This document shows positions 1,543 to 24,004 of a stretch of DNA of 29,992 bases, piece after piece. Under the pieces are notes generated by a model. The model saw only the letters and a list, made by a program, of their open reading frames with translations. It was not told the DNA's origin and did not search any database. This stretch comes from Deltaproteobacteria bacterium (GTDB lineage Bacteria; Desulfobacterota; Syntrophia; Syntrophales; UBA5619). The stretch lies in NCBI GenBank assembly GCA_026388345.1, contig JAPLJY010000102.1:1-29992 (forward strand). Reading direction: 5' to 3'. Within the stretch, counting starts at the first letter, position 1. The number at the start of each line of letters is the position of its first letter. The translations under genes and the position numbers were made by a program.

Positions 1543-2694
1543 TCATGCTTCCGTCCTGACTGAGATGAAAATCTTGTAGAAAATGGTGAGCAACAGCAAT
1601 CCCAAGGCCCAGACACCGATTGTGATGGCGATTTCCGGTCCCGTGGGGGTATAGTCGGTGATGGCCAAAAGCGGGGAGGGCACGAATCCCGTGACCACGA
1701 GCCCCAGCCCCTTCTCGATCCAGAGTGACAGAAAGACGCCGCAGCAGGCCAAGGCGAGCAGAGGTTCCTTCTGCCGCGCCTGGGGGAGGATCAGCAGGAC
1801 GAGGGAGACGCAGGCGGCCAACGCCGAGACGGTCATCCAGTTCGCGATCGTATGGTGTCCCTCCAGGCCCGTGAAGAGATACCGGAAATGGTCCATATGC
1901 CCCGGGATCTGGCCATAGAACGTCGTGAAGAGCTCCACCAGGACGAAAAAGATGCTTGTCGCCAGCGCGTAGGCCACGATCTTGGCCAGGGTCTGGATCG
2001 CTTTTCCCCCCGCGTCAAAACGGGTGAACCGCTTCAGGATCAGACAAAACAGGATCAGCAGTGCCGGGCCGGAGGCGAAGGCGGAGGCGAGAAACCGGGG
2101 CGCCATGATCGCCGTCAGCCAGAAGCCCCTTCCCGGGAGCCCCGCGTAGATGAAGGCCGTGACGGTGTGGATGCTGACGGCCCAGGGGATGGAAAGGATG
2201 ATCAGGGGCTTGACCCAGGCCGGCGGCGGGACCCCCTTGCGGTCGCTCTCCAGGACCGTCCAGCCGGTGACGATGTTCAGGAGCAGATAGCCGTTCAGGA
2301 CGATCATGTCCCAGAAGAGGACCGATGTCGGCGAGGGGTACAGCAAGACATTCATCACCCGGGCGGGCTGGCCCAGATCGACGAAGATGAAGGTGACGCA
2401 CATGATCACGGCGGCCACGGCCAGGAACTCCCCCAGGATCGTGATCTTGCCGAAGGCCTTGAAGTCGTGCAGATAGTAGGGAAGGACGAGCATCACGGCC
2501 GAGGCCGCGATCCCGACCAGAAAGGTGAACTGGGCGATGTAGAGCCCCCAGGAGACGTCCCGGCTCATCCCGGTGATCCCCAGACCGTAATCGAGCTGCC
2601 GGAGGTAGAAGAAAAGACCGATTAACGTCAGGGCGAGCAGGAATGCCACCCAGATTCCGTATCCGCGACTTCCTTTCAGGGCTTTTTCGAGCAC
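1543..2694 (-). CDS. dsrP: DsrP, NrfD/PsrC-type membrane subunit of DsrMKJOP
   Basis: A 383-aa polytopic membrane protein of the NrfD/PsrC family, with about ten hydrophobic segments and no haem. In DsrMKJOP it anchors the periplasmic DsrJ/DsrO arm and exchanges electrons with menaquinone. The N-terminus LEKALKGSRGYGIWVAFL, then YGLGITGMSRDVSWGLYIAQ, is typical of DsrP. I chose GTG 2694 as start because it lies 7 bases after the dsrO stop with GAGG just upstream; the frame is open further upstream but only over dsrO. Length fits the family. It is the last of the five dsrMKJOP genes here and precedes the small Cys-rich gene. Confidence 0.93.
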   Translation of the reverse strand: MLEKALKGSRGYGIWVAFLLALTLIGLFFYLRQLDYGLGITGMSRDVSWGLYIAQFTFLVGIAASAVMLVLPYYLHDFKAFGKITILGEFLAVAAVIMCVTFIFVDLGQPARVMNVLLYPSPTSVLFWDMIVLNGYLLLNIVTGWTVLESDRKGVPPPAWVKPLIILSIPWAVSIHTVTAFIYAGLPGRGFWLTAIMAPRFLASAFASGPALLILFCLILKRFTRFDAGGKAIQTLAKIVAYALATSIFFVLVELFTTFYGQIPGHMDHFRYLFTGLEGHHTIANWMTVSALAACVSLVLLILPQARQKEPLLALACCGVFLSLWIEKGLGLVVTGFVPSPLLAITDYTPTGPEIAITIGVWALGLLLLTIFYKIFISVRTEA

Positions 2695-2701
2695 GGCGAC
2701 C

Positions 2702-3481
2702 TCACAATCGATAATAGACCTGCGGTCCGGTACCCAGCTCCGGCCGGCGCCGGATCGAGAACCCGCTCTCCAGGACGCGCCGGATCTCCGATCCCTTCTC
2801 TTCAAGATCTCCGAAGGCCAGAGCCTTTTCCTTGCAGGCCATCACGCAGGCCGGGAGGATCCCCTGGGCGAGCCGCTCCTCGCAGAAGTTGCACTTCTCC
2901 ACCACCCCTTTGGTCCGCGTCGGGAAATCCGGGTTCAGCCGGGGGATGAACGGCCGGGGATCGCGGTAGTTCATGCTTCTGGATCCATAGGGGCAGGCGG
3001 CCATGCAGAACCGGCAGCCGATGCAGCGGTGGTAGTCCATTATCACGATCCCGTCGGCCCTTTTGAAGGTGGCCTTCGTGGGGCAGACCCGCACGCAGGG
3101 CGGGTTTTCGCAGTGGTTGCAGAGGACCGGCAGGACAAGACCGCCTATCGCCTCCGGCAGACGGGGATGGGCCTCGGCGGGAAAGATATGTCCCACCTTC
3201 TCCAGGCCGATCCAGTGGATATCGTCCTTGGGGTTCCTGAAATCGGGCACGTTATGGGCGATGTGGCAGGCGTCGATGCAGTCCCGGCAACTCGGGCGGC
3301 ATTTTGCGGCGTCGACCGCCATCGCCCAGCGCCTGGCCTTCAAGGCTGCAAGAGCCCCCGCCGCCGCAATAGCCGCCGGGGTTTCGGCGTTTGCAGCGGT
3401 AAGGGGCGCCCAAGGGGGCAGCAGCAGGCCGACGGCCGAGGCCCCCGCTATCTTCAGGAATTCCCTTCGGGTAGGCGCCAT
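2702..3481 (-). CDS. dsrO: DsrO, Tat-exported periplasmic ferredoxin subunit of DsrMKJOP
   Basis: A 259-aa iron-sulfur protein with a twin-arginine signal (TRREFLKIAGASAVGLLLP, residues 4-22) and an Ala-rich cleavage region near 29-33. Several 4Fe-4S groups follow: C61-x3-C-x2-C68-x3-C72, C121-x2-C-x4-C129-x3-C133-P, C153-x2-C-x2-C-x3-C163-P, and C197-x2-C200 with C212/C216. DsrO passes electrons between DsrJ and DsrP on the periplasmic side. The ATG at 3481 shares one base with the dsrJ stop (TGATG) and is preceded by GAGGAGGTCC inside dsrJ. A longer upstream frame (to 3676) is just dsrJ read in another frame. Coupled translation with dsrJ is likely. Confidence 0.95.
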   Translation of the reverse strand: MAPTRREFLKIAGASAVGLLLPPWAPLTAANAETPAAIAAAGALAALKARRWAMAVDAAKCRPSCRDCIDACHIAHNVPDFRNPKDDIHWIGLEKVGHIFPAEAHPRLPEAIGGLVLPVLCNHCENPPCVRVCPTKATFKRADGIVIMDYHRCIGCRFCMAACPYGSRSMNYRDPRPFIPRLNPDFPTRTKGVVEKCNFCEERLAQGILPACVMACKEKALAFGDLEEKGSEIRRVLESGFSIRRRPELGTGPQVYYRL

Positions 3482-6513: not shown

Positions 6514-8127
6514 TCATGATGTCCATGAGGGATCATCGCCGAAACGGATCATCGGCTTTTTCATGTCGGTCATCGCATTGACGATCAATTCCACCAGACC
6601 GCCGTAATACAGACGGCTGCGCTCCTCCGCATGATAATAGCCGAAGATGTCCCGGATGGCGCCCTTGCAGTTCGAGCAGGGGGCGCAGACGTATTTCGGG
6701 ACATCCCGGGGTTCGTCCTGGAAGGCGGCCAGAATCTGGAGGAACTTCTTGCGGCTGCTGACCAGATTGCGCCACTCGGCGAAATTGTAGCCCGACATGA
6801 TGGCGAAACCCGAACCACCGCCGCAGCAGTAGTTCTCCACGCCGTGGGGTGTCATTTCCCGGAACCGCGGCGCGATCTTTCTGAGGATCCGCCTCTGGGG
6901 CTCCACGATCCCCATGGCCCGGACGATGTTGCAGGGATCGTGCAGGGTGACCGGGAAATCGTTCCTGCGGGGATCAAACTGCAATTTCCCGCTCAGCACG
7001 ATGTCCTCCAGCGTGACCATAGCCGATTCCCGCGGAACATTGAGGTCTCCCGTAAGCAGTCGGTCGGCGATGACGGTCAGGGCTTTATGGGCATGGCCGC
7101 ATTCGCCGATGACGATCTTCTTGACCTTCAGGCGCCGGGCGATGTCCGCGTGCTTGACGGCGACGCGGGAGAACTGGACGTCGTCGTACCACAGGCCGTA
7201 GTTGACGGCATCGTAGCCGGCCGCCTCCGAGGACAACGTCCAGGAAACATCGGCCGCCTGAAAAATGATGGCGAAGGCCCCGACATTCTCCGGCCAGGCG
7301 AGCATCTCGCCCGCATTGTGGAGCAGGAGGATATCCGCGCCCTCGACATCCCAGGGGATTTCGACCTTGTAACCGGTGACCTCCTCCATCTCCTCCTGGA
7401 TGAGTTCCATACTGTTCTTGGCGGCCGGCGGGGTCATGCCGGTGGAAGAGCCGACCCGGAGATGCTGGACGGAGCCCTTATCGTGGATCTCCTTGGGGGC
7501 GATCCCCATCTCCTGGGAGAAGAGCTTGCGGATTTCGTGGTTGATCAGACCGTTGTCCACGCCGATCGGGCAGACCGTAGCGCAGCGCCGACAGAGCGTG
7601 CAGCGGTAGGACAACTCGGCAAGCCGCGCGATCGTCGTCCAGTTCAGATCGATATCGCCGGTCCATTTGGCAGTGATTTTCCCGCCCGGTTTGAGATATT
7701 TGTTGTAAATCCGGCGCAGGACCTCGGCACGGAACATGGGCCGGTGGATATCTTTTTTGCCGCTCATCTCATAGACAGGACAGGCGTTGGAACAGGTCTG
7801 GCATTTGGCGCAGTGTTCCATGGAAAGCAACAGGGGCTGCAGAAAGGTCCAGTTGTTTTCCTTTTCAAAAAGTTTTTTCAGTCCCGCAAGGAACCGGCGG
7901 ACCAGTTCCTTTTCCTCTTCCCTGTTCGCAGGCTTGAGGATGCCGATGGCCACCGTGTCGTCCAGGGAGACTTCGATGTTCTTGATCTTGTCCGGCTTCA
8001 GGGGGGGGATCGTCGCCTGATTGAAATCCTCATAGGGAGGGGGCAGGGGCGGCAACTCGCCCGGCTCGATGTGGCACAGGCAGTCGGAGGGCCTGGCCAG
8101 GTCGGAGGGGTTCAGGGACCGGTTCAT
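6514..8127 (-). CDS. DsrK paralogue (HdrD/TmcB-like CCG iron-sulfur protein)
   Basis: A 537-aa HdrD-like protein, clearly related to but distinct from DsrK (3869-5491). It carries two 4Fe-4S motifs (C106-x2-C109-x2-C112-x3-C116-P; then CTLCRRCATVCP) and the CCG-type signatures GECGHAHKAL, HDPCNIVRAMG and NYCCGGGSGFA, ending with CAPCSNCKGAI. It probably reduces a thiol-disulfide substrate, possibly DsrC trisulfide, with electrons from its b-cytochrome partner. Its ATG overlaps the stop of that partner (ATGA), with a strong AAGGAGGTG ribosome binding site. In Desulfovibrio the comparable pair is TmcB/TmcC, but no cytochrome c3 gene (tmcA) is present here, so I avoid that name. A frame extending to 8487 is antisense noise. 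Confidence 0.88.
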   Translation of the reverse strand: MNRSLNPSDLARPSDCLCHIEPGELPPLPPPYEDFNQATIPPLKPDKIKNIEVSLDDTVAIGILKPANREEEKELVRRFLAGLKKLFEKENNWTFLQPLLLSMEHCAKCQTCSNACPVYEMSGKKDIHRPMFRAEVLRRIYNKYLKPGGKITAKWTGDIDLNWTTIARLAELSYRCTLCRRCATVCPIGVDNGLINHEIRKLFSQEMGIAPKEIHDKGSVQHLRVGSSTGMTPPAAKNSMELIQEEMEEVTGYKVEIPWDVEGADILLLHNAGEMLAWPENVGAFAIIFQAADVSWTLSSEAAGYDAVNYGLWYDDVQFSRVAVKHADIARRLKVKKIVIGECGHAHKALTVIADRLLTGDLNVPRESAMVTLEDIVLSGKLQFDPRRNDFPVTLHDPCNIVRAMGIVEPQRRILRKIAPRFREMTPHGVENYCCGGGSGFAIMSGYNFAEWRNLVSSRKKFLQILAAFQDEPRDVPKYVCAPCSNCKGAIRDIFGYYHAEERSRLYYGGLVELIVNAMTDMKKPMIRFGDDPSWTS

Positions 8128-9068
8128 TTCACCTCCTTGGGTGTCGAAGAGGCGATGTCGAGCCAGGATTTTCGTCCGTCCGCCCCGACATGCTTTGCCC
8201 CCCAGGTCGGTCTCAAGTTCAGATTCTTCCGAACGGCGGCCTCGATTCGGCCGCCCCGCCGGTTCGGCGCGTCGTCCCATTTGACATCGTGGTAGAGGAA
8301 ATACTTCATGAACATATGGGACATGTGGGTGAGCGGGATATAGGCGACCAGGAGCGACGCCGTCACAATAGCCACCCTCCCGGGGAGACTTTGCCCCGGA
8401 AGGTAAGGGGACACGGAATGCCCCCCCGTCAACAGGCCAAGCGTATAGGCCTTGGCGCCTTCCAGGGCGGGATCGCCGGACAGGCAACTGACGAGGGCGG
8501 AAAGGAAGAAGAGGAGGGTGAACAGAAGATTGAAATAGTCAACTGGGGAGGAATAGTTCCTCAGTTCCGGATCGGCCAGCCGTCTGTAGAGAAGCCCCAG
8601 GGAGCCGATAATGCCGAGGATCAGACCGCCCCATCCCAGCAAGACGATGAGGCCGTCCATGAGGGTCCGGAGGGCGGAGCCGGAGGCAAAGGCGGTCGAT
8701 CCCCACAGGGTGAAACCGGCATGTTTCAACAGCAGCACAAAGGTCGCGATCGTCAGGTACAGGCCGAAATGGAAGGGAAAGGAGACCCACCAGAGGCCCC
8801 GGTTCTCCTTCCACAACGTCCGGATGAACAGGATCTCCGGCACCATGTAGAGCGCCTCGTTCAGCAGCGATTTTTTCTGCTTCTTTTCCCACCAGTCCAC
8901 TTCTTCCATATAGGAGCCGCCATAGACGACCCTGGCGGCCGTTTCATGCTGGACGGGGTAGATCTCCCAGCGGACATGGACGGGCATGGTCATTTGCCGG
9001 TAAATCCGATAAACGGTTGCGATGACGAACACCGCGATGCACAGGTAAGACAAGATGTAGAATCCCAT
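8124..9068 (-). CDS. DsrM paralogue (NarI-like b-type cytochrome)
   Basis: A 314-aa membrane protein with about five to six transmembrane segments and His residues in hydrophobic stretches (FPFHFGLYLTI, LLLKHAGF, HMSHMFMKYF), as in the NarI/DsrM/TmcC cytochrome b family. It should oxidise menaquinol and hand electrons to the DsrK-like protein whose gene overlaps its stop codon. I chose ATG 9068 (5 bases after the dsrC stop) over a TTG at 9083 that would overlap dsrC. Position directly after dsrC suggests DsrC as the final electron acceptor; that is inference. It is divergent from the second DsrM at 5494-6483, so it is not a recent duplicate. Confidence 0.85.
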   Translation of the reverse strand: MGFYILSYLCIAVFVIATVYRIYRQMTMPVHVRWEIYPVQHETAARVVYGGSYMEEVDWWEKKQKKSLLNEALYMVPEILFIRTLWKENRGLWWVSFPFHFGLYLTIATFVLLLKHAGFTLWGSTAFASGSALRTLMDGLIVLLGWGGLILGIIGSLGLLYRRLADPELRNYSSPVDYFNLLFTLLFFLSALVSCLSGDPALEGAKAYTLGLLTGGHSVSPYLPGQSLPGRVAIVTASLLVAYIPLTHMSHMFMKYFLYHDVKWDDAPNRRGGRIEAAVRKNLNLRPTWGAKHVGADGRKSWLDIASSTPKEVK

Positions 9069-9073
9069 AGACG

Positions 9074-9394
9074 CTACACGCAACCCGTCGGTTTCGAGAG
9101 CCCCGCCAGTTTGCAGGCCCCTTTGGCGGGTCCCGTGGGAAAAAGCTCGTAGAGCTTCTTCATGTCCATCCCATTGTCTTTAAGAACCTTGCGGACCATG
9201 GGGGCGATCCCGAACTGCTGATAATAATTCCGCAGATAGCGGATCATCTTCCAGTGCTCTTCCGTCAATGTTCCTTCGATCCCTTCCTCGGATGCATAGG
9301 CCTGGGCGAACTCCTCACTCCACTTGTCCAGTTCCTGAAGGAATCCGTCTTCATCCACTTCGTAAGTCTTTCCCGCCAGTTCAATCGTGGGCAT
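9074..9394 (-). CDS. dsrC: DsrC, sulfur-carrier substrate protein of DsrAB
   Basis: A 106-aa DsrC with the complete C-terminal arm LFPTGPAKGACKLAGLSKPTGCV-type sequence: Cys94 and the penultimate Cys105, 11 residues apart, both present. This defines true DsrC rather than TusE or other homologues with one Cys. DsrC accepts sulfur from sulfite reduction in DsrAB as a trisulfide bridging the two Cys and is re-reduced at the membrane. The ribosome binding site is CGGAGG, 8 bases before ATG. It lies between dsrN and the DsrM/K-like pair; in many sulfate reducers dsrC stands alone, so its inclusion in the operon is informative. Confidence 0.97.
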   Translation of the reverse strand: MPTIELAGKTYEVDEDGFLQELDKWSEEFAQAYASEEGIEGTLTEEHWKMIRYLRNYYQQFGIAPMVRKVLKDNGMDMKKLYELFPTGPAKGACKLAGLSKPTGCV

Positions 9395-9421: not shown

Positions 9422-10876
9422 TCAAATTGGGTGTTGCCGATTCTCGTTATCCGTCATCAATGGGACCTGTTGATCGTCCCGCCTCTTCCTGTACCGTCGG
9501 GCCGCGCCGATCAGGGCCGGGGCCCATAGCGGCGTACCCAATGCATGGAGATGTGTAAAACCAGCCAAAACGTTGTTTCTGATCAGGCCGTCATGGCAGC
9601 CATCCATCCCCGTCCCGCGCTTTACCCGAAATGCCAGCCGGTGTTTGTCCGCCAAACTGGAGAGAACCCGGCAGTAATGGAATTCGTGACCGTTGAGCTC
9701 AGTCCCGACCGGGAAGAAGGGGTTTTCCCTTTCCACCTCCAGGACCGTATAACCGTGTCCCTGGGGGCGTTTTTCCAGACCGAAGGATATCGGCAGGACG
9801 CCCGCCATCGGGTAACTGGAATCGCCGACGCTCAGGGATTCTCCCAGATAGATAAAGCCTCCGCATTCGGCATAGACGGGCAGACCTGCTTCCGCGGCCT
9901 CACGCAGGGAACGGCGGAAGCTCTCGTTTTGAGAGAGGGGACCGGCCTGTGTTTCGGGGAAACCGCCGCCGATGTACAGGGCGTCCAGGGCAGGCAGTTT
10001 CTCGTCCTTTATGGCGCTGATTTCAATGATCCGGGCCCCGCCTTCGGCCAGCGCTTCGATGTTCTCATGGTAATAGAACTGAAAAGCCCTGTCCCGGATC
10101 ACACCGATCCGGACCGGGTCGCCGACGTCAGCCCTCCCCGGGACGATGTCCAGGAACGCATCCGCCTCCCATGGCGGGGCGTTCTGCGCGATCCGGATAA
10201 GCCCCTCCAGATCCAGGTACTCCTCCGCAATCCCGCCCGCCCTCAGCAGGGCGTCCCGGACGAGCTCGTGTTCCTGGGGCGGAATCAAGCCGAGATGCCG
10301 CTCCGGAAAGGGAAAGTTCACCTCCCCCATCCTCGGCACGACGCCCAGAACGGGGAGATGGCAGATCTCCTCGACGGACTTCCGGGCGATGGCAGCGTGG
10401 CGGCTTCCCCCCACCCGGTTGAGGATCACGCCCCGGATATCCACTTCCGGATCAAGATTCTGGCAACCCAGGACCATCGCCGCCGCGGTCCGCGTGACCT
10501 TGTCACAGTCGACCACCAGGACCAACGGGGCGTGGAGCAGTTTCGCCAGCTCGGCCGTGCTGTGTTTCCCATCGGGCGTCATGCCGTCGTACATTCCCCG
10601 ATTCCCCTCGATCAGCGAAACCGATCCCTCCTGCGCGCGGCGTGAGAAAGAGCTTACAACCTGTCTTTTGCCGATCAGGAAGGTATCCAGGTTGTAGCAG
10701 GGGCCCTCCACCGCCCGGGAGAGCCAGGCGGCGTCGATGTAGTCCGGCCCCTTTTTGAAGGGAACGACCCTGAACCCCCTTTTGCGAAGCGCTACGGCCA
10801 AGGCGACCGAAAGCGTGGTCTTTCCTGCACCGCCCCGAAGGGCGGCCAGGACCAGGCGGGGGCAAGGTCGATTCAT
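9422..10876 (-). CDS. dsrN: DsrN, cobyrinate a,c-diamide synthase-like sirohaem amidase
   Basis: A 484-aa protein of the CbiA/CobB family. The N-terminal dethiobiotin-synthetase-like ATPase has the P-loop GGAGKTT (15-21) and KKGPDYID; the C-terminal class I glutamine amidotransferase has YIGGGFPE, the nucleophile Cys in YAECGGFIYLG, and a late His in LNGHEFHY and GFTHLHALG. In dsr operons this homologue (DsrN) is proposed to make the sirohaem amide found in DsrAB. Cobyrinate diamide synthase for B12 is the alternative, but no cobalamin genes are nearby. It starts 13 bases after the dsrD stop; the ribosome binding site is modest. Confidence 0.93.
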   Translation of the reverse strand: MNRPCPRLVLAALRGGAGKTTLSVALAVALRKRGFRVVPFKKGPDYIDAAWLSRAVEGPCYNLDTFLIGKRQVVSSFSRRAQEGSVSLIEGNRGMYDGMTPDGKHSTAELAKLLHAPLVLVVDCDKVTRTAAAMVLGCQNLDPEVDIRGVILNRVGGSRHAAIARKSVEEICHLPVLGVVPRMGEVNFPFPERHLGLIPPQEHELVRDALLRAGGIAEEYLDLEGLIRIAQNAPPWEADAFLDIVPGRADVGDPVRIGVIRDRAFQFYYHENIEALAEGGARIIEISAIKDEKLPALDALYIGGGFPETQAGPLSQNESFRRSLREAAEAGLPVYAECGGFIYLGESLSVGDSSYPMAGVLPISFGLEKRPQGHGYTVLEVERENPFFPVGTELNGHEFHYCRVLSSLADKHRLAFRVKRGTGMDGCHDGLIRNNVLAGFTHLHALGTPLWAPALIGAARRYRKRRDDQQVPLMTDNENRQHPI

Positions 10877-10889
10877 GTGCCATTACCTG

Positions 10890-11129
10890 CTACGAACACT
10901 TCCCTTCTTCCTTCGGGAAGTATTCCGTCAACGTGATGTATGTCGTGCTGCCGCTCGACCAGTAACGGAGAAGCTCCTGGTCGATCAGTTCCTTCAGGAT
11001 GTTCTGGACGGCGTGCCGGTCGTCTCCCGGAAACCATCGAGTGATATCACGGACATAGAACATCTTTTTGTCCCCACACGACTTTTCCTGGAACATCGAC
11101 ATTACACGCGCCTTCAAATCCTCGCTCAT
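10890..11129 (-). CDS. dsrD: DsrD, winged-helix activator of DsrAB
   Basis: A 79-aa protein matching DsrD: SEDLKARVMSMFQEKS, then a winged-helix region with FYVRDITRWFPGDDRHAVQN and LLRYWSSGSTTYITL. Purified DsrD has been reported to stimulate sulfite reduction by DsrAB, and its gene marks reductive-type dsr clusters. The start at 11129 uses GGAGGTGATC as ribosome binding site, which contains the dsrB stop codon (11132-11134), so translation is probably coupled to dsrB. A start four codons earlier would overlap dsrB. Confidence 0.95.
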   Translation of the reverse strand: MSEDLKARVMSMFQEKSCGDKKMFYVRDITRWFPGDDRHAVQNILKELIDQELLRYWSSGSTTYITLTEYFPKEEGKCS

Positions 11130-11131
11130 GA

Positions 11132-12193
11132 TCACCTCCACTTGAACAGCGTCGATGAATGGAAGGTCTCCGTGGCCATATCGAAGTCATCGATGTGCTT
11201 GTCTGTAAACGGGATCTTCGTCAGGGTGAAGAACCTCTCCCACCCGACACGCTCGATCCATTCGCCGACCCGTTCGTGCTTCCGGGCGTGGCTGGCGTAC
11301 ACCTCGATGATGTTCTTGACGGCATCAACGACCTCCGGCCACCGCGGCGGGTTGTTCGGGAGGAAGGGGATCGCGAGCTTGGAAAACGAAGGGGCGCTGC
11401 GGGCGTTGGAGACCTTTCCCCCCACCCAGATGGAGATCCCGTCGTTGTCCGGATCGGCGATGGGCATGGCCGGGCAGACCGTGTAGCAGTTCCCGCAGTA
11501 CATGCACTTCTCGTCGTTGACCGTGACGGTCTTGTTTTTCATGTCCCCGCGGATCGCGCCCGTGGGACAGGAGGCCACCGTGTTCGGAATCTCGCAGACG
11601 TTGGGAACCCGCGTGTTGTCCGGTTTGGGGACTGTCCGGTGGATGCCGAGGATTGCGATGTCGGAACAGTGAACGGCACCGCACATGTTCAGGCAGCAGG
11701 CCAGGGCGATCCGCACATGGGCGGGAAGCTTCATCGTGACAAAATATTCGTAAATCTCATCCATCAGGGCCTTCACGGGGCCGGAGGCGTCCGTCGCCGG
11801 CGTGTGGCAGTGCACCCAGCCCTGGGTGTGGACGATATTCGAGATGGCGTGTCCCGTTCCGCCGACGGGAAAGCCGCGTTTCTCCAGTTCCGCCAGCAGG
11901 GGGGCCACCTTCCCCTGGTCGGACACGAGAAATTCGACGTTGTGGCGGCTCGTGAAGCGCAGATAGCCGTCGCAGTATTTATCGGCGATCTCGCAGATCT
12001 CCCGGATGTGTTCCGTTGAGAGGAGGCGGGGCGATCCGGCGCGGACCGTGTAGAGCACCTCTCCCGACTCCGCCGTGTGGACCAGGACACCCGGCCGGGG
12101 AATTTCGTGATAACGCCATTTCCCGTAGTTCCGGGATATGACGGGAGGAAGCATCGTCTTGTAATCAGGGGGGCCGATATCCGTCTTTGCCAT
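11132..12193 (-). CDS. dsrB: DsrB, dissimilatory sulfite reductase beta subunit
   Basis: A 353-aa beta subunit. [20 protein letters not shown] is the conserved DsrB signature (residues 122-141). Cys in [13 protein letters not shown] (166-178) and C200...C209 surround the sirohaem-linked cluster; a ferredoxin insert follows with C230-x2-C233-x2-C236-x3-C240-P. Together with DsrA it forms the alpha2beta2 enzyme that reduces sulfite. It starts one base after the dsrA stop with AAGGAGGTG inside the dsrA end. Length and motifs are intact. Confidence 0.98.
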
Positions 12194-19286: not shown

Positions 19287-20138
19287 ATGGATCTAACATG
19301 TTATTATGAATTTATATCCAACGAGAGCAAAGCCAGAAGATATCTGCTGGGAAAATGCTTCAAAAACCATCAACGGTTTTGCCCTCGCTGCAGCCAGAGA
19401 AAGCTCTATAAATTATGTGATGGAAGGTATAGATGCTCCCGTTGTGATTACACCTTCCATGACTTCTCAGGTCGCTGGATCAACCGTGGACGCCTGAGCT
19501 GTATTCAGTGGCTGTCCATCATCAAGCTCTTTGAATTGGAAGTATCCGTCCACAAGATGGCCAGGCAGATGACGATATCTTATAAGGCCGTCTATGGCGC
19601 CGTGAACACGATCCGAATGTCCATCCTGAGCCATGCCGAGGATGCGGATGCCTTGCTGGGAGGAGAAATCGAGTTGGATGAGGCCTACTTCGGCGGCCGC
19701 AGGAAAGGCAACCGGGGAAGAGGCGCTGCCGGCAAGGTCCCCGTCTTTGGCATTCTGGAAAGAGATGGCTTGGTCCATGTGAATGTCGTGCCTAATGTTA
19801 CGGCGGAAACCCTTATGGGGCTTACCGTCAAGAAGGTCCGCAGGGGATCTGTGGTCTACACAGATAAATTCAGGAGCTATGATAGCCTGATGTTCTGCGG
19901 ATACCGGCATCTGAAGGTGGACCTCGACAGGTATTTCTCTTCCGGCAAGGTTTACATCAACGGCATGGAGGGATTCTGGAGCTGGGCCAAGGAAAGATTC
20001 ATCAAGCACCATGGCGTCTCCAAGGAGTACTTCCCTCTCTATTTGAAAGAGCTGGAGTTTCGTTATAATAACCGGAACTCTGATATTTTTGACCTGGTCG
20101 CCAACTATCTGTGCGATCTGGTGCCAGAACGGGGCTAA
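19287..20138 (+). CDS. IS1595-family transposase
   Basis: A 283-aa transposase. An N-terminal zinc ribbon (C32-x2-C35 ... C50-x2-C53) precedes the ISXO2-like DDE domain: D131 in EIELDEAYFGGRRKG, D193 in VVYTDKFRSYDS, the NGMEGFWSWAKER region at 226-237, and an acidic residue in LKELEFRYNNR (about 254-256). It cuts and joins the element's ends. No frameshift or stop is seen, so it is likely active. Its stop codon is inside the right terminal repeat. Base composition is lower in GC than the dsr genes. Confidence 0.93.
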   Translation: MDLTCYYEFISNESKARRYLLGKCFKNHQRFCPRCSQRKLYKLCDGRYRCSRCDYTFHDFSGRWINRGRLSCIQWLSIIKLFELEVSVHKMARQMTISYKAVYGAVNTIRMSILSHAEDADALLGGEIELDEAYFGGRRKGNRGRGAAGKVPVFGILERDGLVHVNVVPNVTAETLMGLTVKKVRRGSVVYTDKFRSYDSLMFCGYRHLKVDLDRYFSSGKVYINGMEGFWSWAKERFIKHHGVSKEYFPLYLKELEFRYNNRNSDIFDLVANYLCDLVPERG

Positions 20139-20337: not shown

Positions 20338-21255
20338 ATGGAAAGGCGTAGTGAGAAAAAGGAGATTCTGGAAGTTGGTTCCAACTCGTTCAGTCTGAAT
20401 CCTCTGTGTACCCGTCGACAGACCTTGAAATGGGGCGGGATATCGATCATAGGAATATCTACGCTCCAACCTGTTTTCGCCCAAGGGGCCATAAAGCCCT
20501 TGATCATTATGGAACAGGCCCAGGGGATCGTGGTGGCGGACCCAATGAAGTGTGTCGGATGCGGGCGTTGCGAATTGGCCTGTACTGAATTCAACGAGGG
20601 CAGGGCAAATCCGGCCATATCGAGGATCAAAGTGGGCCGGAACCTCAACTTCGGGCCCGAAGTGGTGTTGGACTGGCGGGAGGGACAGGGCAATTGGGGG
20701 GACGGGCTGGTTTTGCTGGACCTCTGCAAGCAGTGCCCGCACCCTGTGCCATGCGCCAACATCTGTCCGGAGAATGCCATCGTGGCGGCGCCTCCGGGCT
20801 ATACGCGAACGGTCGACCTGGAAAAGTGCACGGGCTGCAAGATCTGCCTGGGAGCCTGTCCCTGGGAGATGATCTCCTTCGATCCGGATTCCCGCAAAGC
20901 GACCAAGTGCCACCTCTGCAACGGGAAACCCAAATGTGTGGAGGCCTGCCCTGCCGAATCCCTCAGTTATGTTTCCTGGCGTGACCTGACCCGCAAGTTC
21001 CCCCCTCGCCTGATGACAACGGCGGGGATTCCATCGGAGCGATCCGTGGGCTGCCAGGAGTGCCACCTCCCCGGTCAAGCGAAGAACGTCCGTCAGGGGA
21101 TGGGAATGTTCCCGGGCTCGGCGAAAGGAGGCAGACCCTTCTCCGCACGGGAGTTCGGCTTCAAGTGGATCGATCTGGCCGGCGCGCTTTTGCTTCCCCT
21201 TGCGGTGGTTTCCGTGGTTGCCCATGCCGTGCTGCGGAAGGTGGTGAAACGATGA
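20338..21255 (+). CDS. ydhY: YdhY-like Tat-exported ferredoxin with added haem motif and membrane anchor
   Basis: A 305-aa protein. The core matches E. coli YdhY: CVGCGRCELACTEFNEG (72-88), CKQC...CANICP (130-143), CTGCKICLGACPW (164-176) and CHLC...CVEACP (191-205), i.e. four 4Fe-4S sites. A twin-arginine signal (TRRQTLKWGGIS, RR at 26-27) directs it to the periplasm. Beyond the YdhY core lie about 85 more residues with a CxxCH haem c motif (CQECH, 239-243) and a C-terminal hydrophobic helix (about 278-298). It likely relays electrons between the YdhV-type enzyme or a donor and the b-cytochrome encoded next. ATG 20338 has AAGGA seven bases upstream. Its stop overlaps the next start (ATGA). 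Confidence 0.85.
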   Translation: MERRSEKKEILEVGSNSFSLNPLCTRRQTLKWGGISIIGISTLQPVFAQGAIKPLIIMEQAQGIVVADPMKCVGCGRCELACTEFNEGRANPAISRIKVGRNLNFGPEVVLDWREGQGNWGDGLVLLDLCKQCPHPVPCANICPENAIVAAPPGYTRTVDLEKCTGCKICLGACPWEMISFDPDSRKATKCHLCNGKPKCVEACPAESLSYVSWRDLTRKFPPRLMTTAGIPSERSVGCQECHLPGQAKNVRQGMGMFPGSAKGGRPFSAREFGFKWIDLAGALLLPLAVVSVVAHAVLRKVVKR

Positions 21256-21887
21256 AAAGAACTTATCTCCATCCCCTGCCCCTGAGGATATGGCATTGGT
21301 TGAACGCTTTCCTGGTCGTTGTCCTCCTCATAACCGGCGCCCAGCTGCGAATACCGGGGATTGCCTCCCTGCGGCCCAACGATCCGGCTCTCATGGTCCA
21401 CAAATACGCCGGCTGGGCGATGGCGGTTTCTTTTGTCATCTGGCTCGTTTATGGCTTGGTCAGTGATCATTTGAGACGGCACTATGTGATGAGGCGGCGG
21501 GACCTCAAAGGGGTCTTCAGCCAGGCAAGGTTCTATCTGTTCTCTATTTTCAAGGGGGAGGAGAACCCTTTCCTGCCGTCACCCGAGGAGATATTTAACC
21601 CTCTCCAGAAGCTTGCCTATGGAGCGATCATGGGCCTCTTGACCCCGGTCCTGGTGGTCACGGGCCTCCTCTACAGCGATATCCTTTTCTTCCGCAAATA
21701 TATTCTGCTTTGGGACATCGTGGGGGTCCTGGATGCCATCCACGTGATCGGCGCCTATGTGTTTGCCCTCTACCTGGTGGTCCATGTATACATGGCAACC
21801 CTCGGGCGGACGGCTTTTTCCCACATCAAGGCAATGATTGTGGGCTATGAGGAAGAGCCCGGTGAACCTGAAGAGAAGGGCGTGTAA
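21252..21887 (+). CDS. Di-haem b-type cytochrome membrane subunit (FdnI/HydC/YdhU type)
   Basis: A 211-aa membrane protein with four transmembrane helices and His residues in the positions of di-haem b561-type subunits: LHPLPLRIWHWLNAF, LMVHKYAGWAM, AIHVIGAYVF and LVVHVYMATLG. It connects the ferredoxin encoded just before it with the quinone pool. It overlaps that gene by four bases and precedes ydhV by 11 bases. It occupies the role of YdhU in the E. coli ydh cluster; I am sure of the cytochrome type, less of strict orthology to YdhU. Confidence 0.86.
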   Translation: MKRTYLHPLPLRIWHWLNAFLVVVLLITGAQLRIPGIASLRPNDPALMVHKYAGWAMAVSFVIWLVYGLVSDHLRRHYVMRRRDLKGVFSQARFYLFSIFKGEENPFLPSPEEIFNPLQKLAYGAIMGLLTPVLVVTGLLYSDILFFRKYILLWDIVGVLDAIHVIGAYVFALYLVVHVYMATLGRTAFSHIKAMIVGYEEEPGEPEEKGV

Positions 21888-21898
21888 AAGGAAATGCC

Positions 21899-24004
21899 AT
21901 GGCCAGATACGGAGGATGGTCCGGAAAGGTGCTTCGTGTTGATCTATCGACCGGGCGTACCTGGACCGAGGACACAGTCGAGAAGTACAAGGACTATTTG
22001 GGCGGCACGGGGATCGGATACAAGGTGATGTGGGACGAGGTCCCTGCGGGGACCAAGCCCAACGACCCTGAAAACCTAATTATCTTCGCGGTGGGACCCC
22101 TGGCGGGGACCGGCGCCCCCTGCAACGGCCGAACGGCCATCACCACCCTCTGGCCGACCTGTTGGCCAAAGCCCTTGGTGGCGAGCGGACATATGGGCGG
22201 GCAGTTTGCCGCCAAGCTGAAATATGCGGGGTACGATGCCCTTGTCATCCAGGGGAGGGCCGACCGCCCCGTCTGGTTGTCGATCGTCGATGAGCAGGTG
22301 GAGATTCAGGATGCCCGCCGGTTCTGGGGGGAAGGCATCCGCCGGACGACCTCTGCGATCACGCAAATGATGGGGTCCGAGTCGGTGGTGGCCGCCATCG
22401 GTCAGGCGGGCGAAAACCTGGTTCCCATGTCTGTGGTGATGAACTCCGTTTCCCACTCCGCCGGCGGAATCGGTTCGGTGATGGGGTCCAAGAACCTCAA
22501 AGCCATTGGGGTGCAGGGCACCGGCTGCGTCCGGATTGCCGGCAACAGAGAGGAGTGGGAAAAGCTGATCAAGTTCCACCTCTCCCTTCTCGGGGCCAAC
22601 AACCAGCACGTCGTTCCCAGCGAGCCTCAGCCGTGGGCGGAGTTTCATGAGTCCGGAAGCCGTTGGAAGGGCGGGAGAGGGCGTTCCTGGGGAGCCGCAC
22701 CTCGACCCATAGAAACAGGAACGTGCGAACCCCACAACCTGAACCGGATCGCCTACCGGACGAACAATGCCGCCTTCTTCATGGGCGATATCGCATGGCA
22801 GTACACCGTCCGGGGAAATGGCTGTACAAGCTGTCCCATCCGGTGCCACACGATGTTGAAGGTTCCTTCCGTGTCTGTGAAATATGGCATCCCGGATGTG
22901 GGGCAAAACACATGCGGCGGTCTCAATTTCGGCCGCTCCTTCTTCAAAGAATTTCCTGACGGCCCGAGGGGCATGACAAATGTGGAGGCTTCCATGGTCG
23001 GCATGCACCTGGCGGATGACCTTGGCCTATGGTGCAACTACAGCCAATTGCAGCGTGATTTCAAGAAACTCTACTATGAAGGGTTCATCAAGAAGAAACT
23101 GGAAGAAAAGGAATTCAAAAGCTACTCCTGGAGCAAATACGAAAAGGGAGACCCCGCTTTTCTCTTCGAGCTCTTGCCACGGATCGCCTCCAAGGATGGG
23201 GAACTGGGAACCGCTCTGGGCCTCGGGACGGGCTATCTCCTTGAACGCTGGGCAATACCGGAAGCGATCTGGGTGAAGGATAAAGAGCTTGCCTACTGGA
23301 AGATGGGCCATCCCAAGCACCACTCAACGGAGGACGCGGGCCAATGCGGGCTCCTCATCAACCTGCCGTACAACCGCGACGCCCAGTGTCACTCCCACAG
23401 CAATTTCGTCCGGAATGGCCTGCCGATTTCCGTGCAGAAGGGCCTGGCCGCCGAGATCTGGGGCTCGCCCGGCGCCGTCGATGCGGTAGGCGCCTACACC
23501 CCGATGAACCCATCCAAGGCCAAGATGGCCAAGTGGTCACTGCTCCGGAAGGAGCTCCATGATTCCCTCTCCCTCTGCAACTGGATGGGGCCCTGGGTGG
23601 CGTCACCGCTCAAAGAACGGGGTTACCGCGGCGATGACTCCATCGAGTCGATGCTTTACAGCCTTGCGACGGGGGATAAGAAAGACCGGCGGGAGCTGGA
23701 CCAAGTAGCTGAACGCATCTTCGCGCTGCATCGGGCCCTGACGATCCGCGATATGAGAACGAAGGAGATGCGCACGATGCACGACACCATCCCCGAGTGG
23801 GTGTTCACCGATAAGTCGGGGAAGGCCCCCTTCACCAAGGGAACCACGCACATGGATCGGAACGATACCAAAGTCGCCCTGGAGATGTTTTACGACGAAC
23901 TGGGCTGGGACAGAATCACCGGCGCCCCGACACGCCAAACCTACCAAAAACTCGGTCTGGCTCAGGTTGCTGCGGAGTTGGGCAAGAAAAATCTGCTGCC
24001 CTGA
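21899..24004 (+). CDS. ydhV: YdhV, aldehyde:ferredoxin oxidoreductase-family molybdo/tungsto-enzyme
   Basis: A 701-aa protein, the same size as E. coli YdhV and similar along its length: LGGTGIGYKVMWDEVPAGTKP, GPLAGTGAPCNGR, AAIGQAGENLVP, GSVMGSKNLKAI, HVVPSEPQPWAE, WSLLRKELHDSLSLCNWM and a matching C-terminus ending in NLLP. The 4Fe-4S ligands C309-x2-C312-x3-C316 (GCTSCPIRCH) and a late Cys in LCNWM are present. Aldehyde oxidoreductases hold a bis-pyranopterin Mo or W; E. coli YdhV has been reported to carry a bis-MPT Mo cofactor. The physiological substrate is unknown. No Tat signal, so it is cytoplasmic, as usual for the family, unlike its exported ferredoxin partner. Confidence 0.93.
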   Translation: MARYGGWSGKVLRVDLSTGRTWTEDTVEKYKDYLGGTGIGYKVMWDEVPAGTKPNDPENLIIFAVGPLAGTGAPCNGRTAITTLWPTCWPKPLVASGHMGGQFAAKLKYAGYDALVIQGRADRPVWLSIVDEQVEIQDARRFWGEGIRRTTSAITQMMGSESVVAAIGQAGENLVPMSVVMNSVSHSAGGIGSVMGSKNLKAIGVQGTGCVRIAGNREEWEKLIKFHLSLLGANNQHVVPSEPQPWAEFHESGSRWKGGRGRSWGAAPRPIETGTCEPHNLNRIAYRTNNAAFFMGDIAWQYTVRGNGCTSCPIRCHTMLKVPSVSVKYGIPDVGQNTCGGLNFGRSFFKEFPDGPRGMTNVEASMVGMHLADDLGLWCNYSQLQRDFKKLYYEGFIKKKLEEKEFKSYSWSKYEKGDPAFLFELLPRIASKDGELGTALGLGTGYLLERWAIPEAIWVKDKELAYWKMGHPKHHSTEDAGQCGLLINLPYNRDAQCHSHSNFVRNGLPISVQKGLAAEIWGSPGAVDAVGAYTPMNPSKAKMAKWSLLRKELHDSLSLCNWMGPWVASPLKERGYRGDDSIESMLYSLATGDKKDRRELDQVAERIFALHRALTIRDMRTKEMRTMHDTIPEWVFTDKSGKAPFTKGTTHMDRNDTKVALEMFYDELGWDRITGAPTRQTYQKLGLAQVAAELGKKNLLP

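Follow-up and report, generated by a model that had tools for sequence, protein, structure and literature searches.

In passages of Neukirchen et al. 2023 (PMC10504309), organisms that possess only DsrMK occupy a basal clade of DsrK, some Deltaproteobacteria in that clade also hold DsrMKJOP, and the DsrM histidines are stated to be highly conserved, with two haems named, for DsrM in general. In an excerpt of another paper (PMC3949148), a second dsrMK(K) of Archaeoglobus fulgidus, AF0543-AF0545, is described as constantly and highly expressed, and the thermodynamics of a menaquinol:DsrC reaction are questioned. Here we describe a second DsrM/DsrK-like gene pair, M'K', in a Syntrophales member of the Deltaproteobacteria. 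The window, meaning the whole stretch of DNA analysed, comprises 29,992 nucleotides (contig JAPLJY010000102.1 of assembly GCA_026388345.1), and the pair lies within its dsr gene train, between dsrC and dsrMKJOP. With a probability of about one half, M'K' is an oxidoreductase of the DsrMK-only type, made of two subunits with a single haem, that links menaquinol to DsrC and would add to the operon a second route yielding less energy or none.

The M'K' gene pair

The pair consists of the following features.

8124..9068, minus strand: M', NarI/DsrM-like membrane cytochrome b, ATG start, 314 amino acids, five predicted transmembrane helices
6514..8127, minus strand: K', HdrD/DsrK-like protein with two [4Fe-4S] motifs and a CCG domain, 537 amino acids
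8124..8127, minus strand: ATGA stop/start overlap of M' and K', read from the sequence
8131-8138, minus strand: strong ribosome-binding site aaggaggt before K', read from the sequence

An initial annotation of this DNA had placed two genes between dsrC and dsrMKJOP and joined them by an ATGA overlap, and both observations are confirmed. An alternative TTG start of M' is possible at 9083, within dsrC. From the open reading frames of the window and family models (for dsrD, from place and sequence), the minus-strand order is dsrA-B-D-N-C-M'-K'-M-K-J-O-P. In the window and in the locus maps, M'K' is an adjacent M and K gene pair without its own JOP genes, and the JOP genes of the window directly follow the canonical MK genes. 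Gaps between genes are short (dsrN-dsrC 27 nucleotides, dsrC-M' 5, K'-dsrM 30, dsrM-dsrK 2), and the whole train is likely to form a single transcript.

Orthologues, divergence and phylogeny

The pair is not a product of chance, because full-length relatives of both M' and K' occur in many genomes and metagenomes; named matches are mostly annotated as Fe-S oxidoreductase and nitrate reductase gamma subunit. Genome contigs were scanned with a profile built from an 18-row K' alignment, and the best 80 of 331 loci were kept. On a K' model, K' proteins score 872-1008 bits; the next-best are an archaeal paralogue with 607 and another protein with 369, and canonical DsrK does not exceed 251. K' was present in 40 of the 297 genomes drawn from the phylum (E 1e-150 or better, up to four candidates scored per genome). 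Among Archaeoglobaceae, 25 of 55 genomes have a match at E 1e-100 or better, 19 of these with at least 680 bits.

The divergence from dsrM and dsrK that the initial annotation had noted is large. Within the window, K' and DsrK are 30% identical and M' and DsrM 28%, and the pair misses the canonical NCBIfam equivalog cut-offs (K' 335.6 bits against 400, M' 23.7 against 300), whereas the window's own dsrMKJOP genes pass all five. In a tree of 158 rows (quick mode, Shimodaira-Hasegawa-like approximate likelihood ratio test (SH-aLRT) only, long branches flagged), 94 rows form one K' clade (SH-aLRT 99) separate from DsrK, TmcB and the CCG-receiver proteins. Canonical DsrK has its own clade (39 rows, SH-aLRT 100), and eight TmcB rows with one further row form a third (SH-aLRT 100, stem 2.31). 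The proposed check by a DsrK/TmcB/HdrD tree thus gives no Tmc placement. The K' clade ranges over Syntrophales, Zixibacteria, Acidobacteria, Chloroflexi, Bacillota and Archaeoglobaceae, and one of its genomes we take to be that of A. fulgidus. Archaeoglobaceae also occur in the DsrK clade.

Haem ligands of M' and cluster ligands of K'

The haem ligand positions of M' in the window are as follows.

8769..8771, minus strand: His100, near-side haem ligand, equivalent to NarI H56
8739-8741, minus strand: codon of Phe110, at the position of a would-be far-side ligand
8316..8318, minus strand: His251, near-side haem ligand, equivalent to NarI H205
8370-8372, minus strand: codon of Ala233, at the position of a would-be far-side ligand

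These assignments come from alignment and position counts and not from a simple spacing pattern, which misleads in M', where His31 and His41, outside the transmembrane helices, show the same ten-residue spacing. Near-side ligands are retained in 85 of 89 M' proteins, and both far-side ligands are missing in 57 of the 89, including that of the window; canonical DsrM retains all four haem histidines. The initial annotation had overlooked this loss of haem ligands from M', in which neither far-side position is occupied by His. With Phe110 and Ala233 at these positions the window M' would not qualify as a di-haem DsrM, and it appears to hold a single haem b.

K' retains all of its cluster cysteines, in agreement with the earlier statement.

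6667..6933, minus strand: CCG ligands Cys399, Cys434, Cys435, Cys484 and Cys487, with the K'-typical Cys481, in 94/94 K' proteins
7093..7095, minus strand: His345, equivalent by spacing to EtfD His583 (PMC13083937)

The C-X34-CC ... CX2C ligands of a non-cubane cluster, a mark of HdrD/HdrB-type CCG proteins, are present in K'. The HdrB-type bridging cysteine is retained in all 94 K' proteins, whereas Asp stands there in 38 of 38 DsrK. All D2 ligands of EtfD (PMC13083937) recur in K' at the same spacings (54, 35 and 3); K' has no conserved Cys at 255-340, and therefore no ligand set there for the other cluster of EtfD. In the open-access literature passages searched, no statement was found on the haem-ligand loss in M' or on the Cys/Asp difference in K', and searches with sequences of solved structures returned no chain named DsrK or DsrM.

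Two kinds of fusion involve related CCG proteins. At L080:14684-16336 a [4Fe-4S]2-CCG protein is fused to a DsrC domain (PF04358, residues 448-537), and its gene adjoins a DsrM-like gene and another DsrC-like gene, which suggests direct contact of DsrK-like with DsrC-like proteins. Ten further DsrK-like [4Fe-4S]2-CCG proteins are fused to a response-regulator receiver domain (L016:5428-7173, L001:5439-7187, L003, L006, L011, L014, L024, L036, L048 and L056). In L016 genes for a PAS histidine kinase and a small response regulator come after the fusion, between dsrC and M'K'; such proteins are possibly thiol or redox sensors for the Dsr pathway.

Linkage to dsrC, dsrA and DsrMKJOP

Locus counts rest on the 77 of 80 loci that have M' (3/80 lack it). 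A dsrC-family gene lies at most 600 nucleotides upstream on the same strand in 31 of the 77 and at 0.6-6 kb in 11; 23 have none within 6 kb, and in 12 the upstream sequence is too short. The conserved dsrC neighbourhood asked for in the initial annotation is thus only partly borne out, given the 23 loci that have at least 6 kb of upstream sequence and no dsrC in it. Of the 31 close genes, 27 end in a TGCV tail, and the other four are DsrC-like frames without terminal Cys directly before M'K' (L010:8477-8815, L025:2903-3247, L031:7028-7774, L053:581-1177). The order dsrC-M'-K'-dsrM does recur, in 14 loci, but all are close relatives with K' at least 78% identical, and it is apparently a Syntrophales trait. 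In 20/77 loci dsrM lies at most 300 nucleotides after K', and 21/77 lack both a dsrC in the 6 kb upstream and a dsrM in the 3 kb downstream.

At the genome level, dsrA exceeds the curated cut-off in 44 of 50 K' genomes (sampled from the 80 loci); a looser E-value count (49/50) carries no meaning, since 8 of 14 control genomes were positive as well. In the draw of 297 phylum genomes, 144 have a dsrA at E 1e-60 or better, and 143 exceed the cut-off. It is present in 38 of 40 genomes with K' vs 106 of 257 without (Fisher p 2.6e-11, kinship not corrected); the two exceptions, G015 (the Syntrophaceae metagenome-assembled genome of L025) and G302, may either of them be incomplete. DsrP exceeds its cut-off in 36 of 46 K' genomes tested, a count to which no Archaeoglobaceae genome contributed, although a divergent DsrP occurs in four of the five Archaeoglobaceae loci. 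The pair is therefore usually found alongside DsrMKJOP and not in its place.

Proposed function and alternatives

M'K' would be a second DsrMK complex, encoded in one gene train with DsrC and DsrMKJOP. M' would reside in the membrane with one haem b near the cytoplasmic side, in contact with menaquinol; electrons would then travel through both cubane clusters of K' and reach a single non-cubane cluster of the CCG domain, which would reduce DsrC trisulfide or disulfide, releasing sulfide and regenerating DsrC. Gene order, orthology, the conserved Fe-S ligands, the lost far-side His and the linkage to dsrC and dsrA are observations, whereas the haem count, the direction, DsrC as partner or substrate and the electroneutrality are inferred. 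Since the far-side haem ligands are gone, quinol would probably be oxidised at the one remaining haem, so that less energy would be conserved than by the two-haem DsrM route, or none. A broader scheme, in which many sulfite reducers combine a coupled two-haem DsrMKJOP with an uncoupled, putatively electroneutral single-haem M'K' (menaquinol being oxidised on the cytoplasmic side) that serves the same carrier, sometimes from one operon, is tentative and on balance doubtful. The initial interpretation is partly supported. Its view of the pair as a separate two-subunit quinone/CCG module tied to the Dsr pathway holds, in that K' falls outside TmcB in the tree, dsrC is near in 31/77 loci and K' was rarely found without dsrA; the pair departs from DsrMK in its predicted haem count and its catalytic cysteines.

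Such wiring is reversible in principle, and M'K' could instead take electrons from reduced or persulfidated DsrC and deliver them to quinones, in sulfur oxidation, disproportionation or redox balancing. Menaquinone is the reported electron acceptor of EtfD, the closest solved relative, and a one-haem architecture fits quinone reduction. This direction is nevertheless unlikely: the train has a dsrD-like gene and DsrMKJOP genes that pass sulfate-reduction equivalog models, and no dsrEFH or dsrL appeared among the window proteins scanned, although that scan covered only part of the open reading frames and no search was aimed at these genes. It is just as unlikely that the CCG cluster of K' serves electron transfer only, as in EtfD, with a flavoprotein or another disulfide in place of DsrC. 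The D2 ligand set with its matching spacings speaks for such a role, and the missing ligand set for the other EtfD cluster, the adjacency of dsrC and the co-occurrence of dsrA speak against it. Membership of the EtfD class itself was rejected, as M' and K' are two separate genes and not a fusion, and 255-340 offers no conserved Cys as ligands for a linear [3Fe-4S] cluster; no Etf was found among the window genes scanned.

Proximity of dsrM in 20 loci and the frequency of DsrP in K' genomes would also fit an alternative MK module that docks on the DsrJOP half to form M'K'JOP. The 21 loci with neither dsrC nor dsrM nearby and the large sequence divergence from DsrMK make this exchange improbable. 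Least probable, to the point of being nearly dismissed, is a Tmc/Hmc-type complex with partners elsewhere: K' does match the TmcB (193.1 bits) and HmcF (201 bits) models, but both scores are far under the cut-offs of 735 and 750, and TmcB has its own clade on a stem of 2.31. TmcBC/HmcEF identity was rejected on these scores and on the others obtained (25.3 against 240, 27.2 against 275), and for TmcB also on the tree, which contains no HmcF.

The coupling of DsrC trisulfide reduction to energy conservation is an old question. A second reductase, defined by sequence, that shares the operon but has lost haem ligands and changed a cluster ligand offers a natural comparison. Two sequence markers, the far-side His in M and the choice between Cys and Asp as bridging residue in K, can serve to tell the complexes apart in metagenomes. 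If the broader scheme is true, the coupled/uncoupled pair would be a Dsr counterpart of the NDH-1/NDH-2 split, and cells could give up energy yield to gain flux, or keep the pathway going under too small a driving force.

Other features of the window

The remaining genes of the train are listed below.

9074..9394, minus strand: dsrC (PF04358, TIGR03342), both C-terminal Cys present (GACKLAGLSKPTGCV)
9422..10876, minus strand: dsrN, CbiA-type amidotransferase
10890..11129, minus strand: dsrD, 79 amino acids, labelled from operon place and sequence only, without a family model
11132..12193, minus strand: dsrB, TIGR02066, 527.3 bits
12195..13394, minus strand: dsrA, TIGR02064, 570.2 bits
5494..6483, minus strand: canonical dsrM, NF038037, 471.8 bits
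3869..5491, minus strand: canonical dsrK, NF045796, 738.1 bits
3481..3882, minus strand: dsrJ, NF038038, 160.2 bits
2702..3676, minus strand: dsrO open reading frame, NF045797, 301.5 bits from residue 66, true start probably near 3481
1543..2805, minus strand: dsrP open reading frame, NF045798, 465.9 bits from residue 39, true start probably further in

Between L001 and the window, DsrMKJOP and a SulP-like transporter are 77-92% identical, yet DsrA is only 54% and DsrB 60% identical; for L002, DsrAB identity is 93%. An exchange of dsrAB alone, with the rest of the train staying similar, may explain this. Outside the train, the regions 21060-24004 and 19287-20138 hold a cytochrome b561-type gene, then an aldehyde:ferredoxin oxidoreductase gene, and an IS1595-type transposase gene upstream of these two.

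Comparison with known systems

M'K' beside DsrMKJOP is a known, little-studied type and not a new type of complex, because DsrMK-only complexes beside DsrMKJOP are already described in passages of two publications (PMC10504309, PMC3949148). The DsrMK-only complexes of the first source share the two-gene make-up without JOP and, in Deltaproteobacteria, the presence of DsrMKJOP as well; they differ in the conserved DsrM histidines stated there, two of the four being missing in 57/89 M'. The K' clade may be the same as the published basal DsrK clade. Bacillota and Desulfobacterota members fall inside the K' clade and an archaeal K' (L135, 836.6 bits) reaches the K' score level. The L135 genome, which we take to be that of A. 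fulgidus, has M', K'' and K' consecutively at about 493-497 kb. It differs from the window in its extra second K, in an M' that retains one of the two far-side His, and in its dsrC (AF2228), which lies elsewhere in the genome.

DsrM and DsrK of DsrMKJOP share with M'K' the two cubane motifs, the CCG domain and a NarI-type cytochrome, but are only 28-30% identical; in DsrK the bridging Cys is replaced by Asp and a CxC is usual, and DsrM has four haem His. Mycobacterial EtfD (9ojn, PMC13083937) differs as a fused single protein with an extra linear [3Fe-4S] cluster and proposed electron uptake from ETF. HdrDE/HdrB of methanogens resemble M'K' in joining a membrane b-cytochrome to a CCG disulfide reductase and in retaining CX2C with the bridging Cys, whereas HdrB has two catalytic non-cubane clusters, against ligands for one in K', and acts on another substrate.
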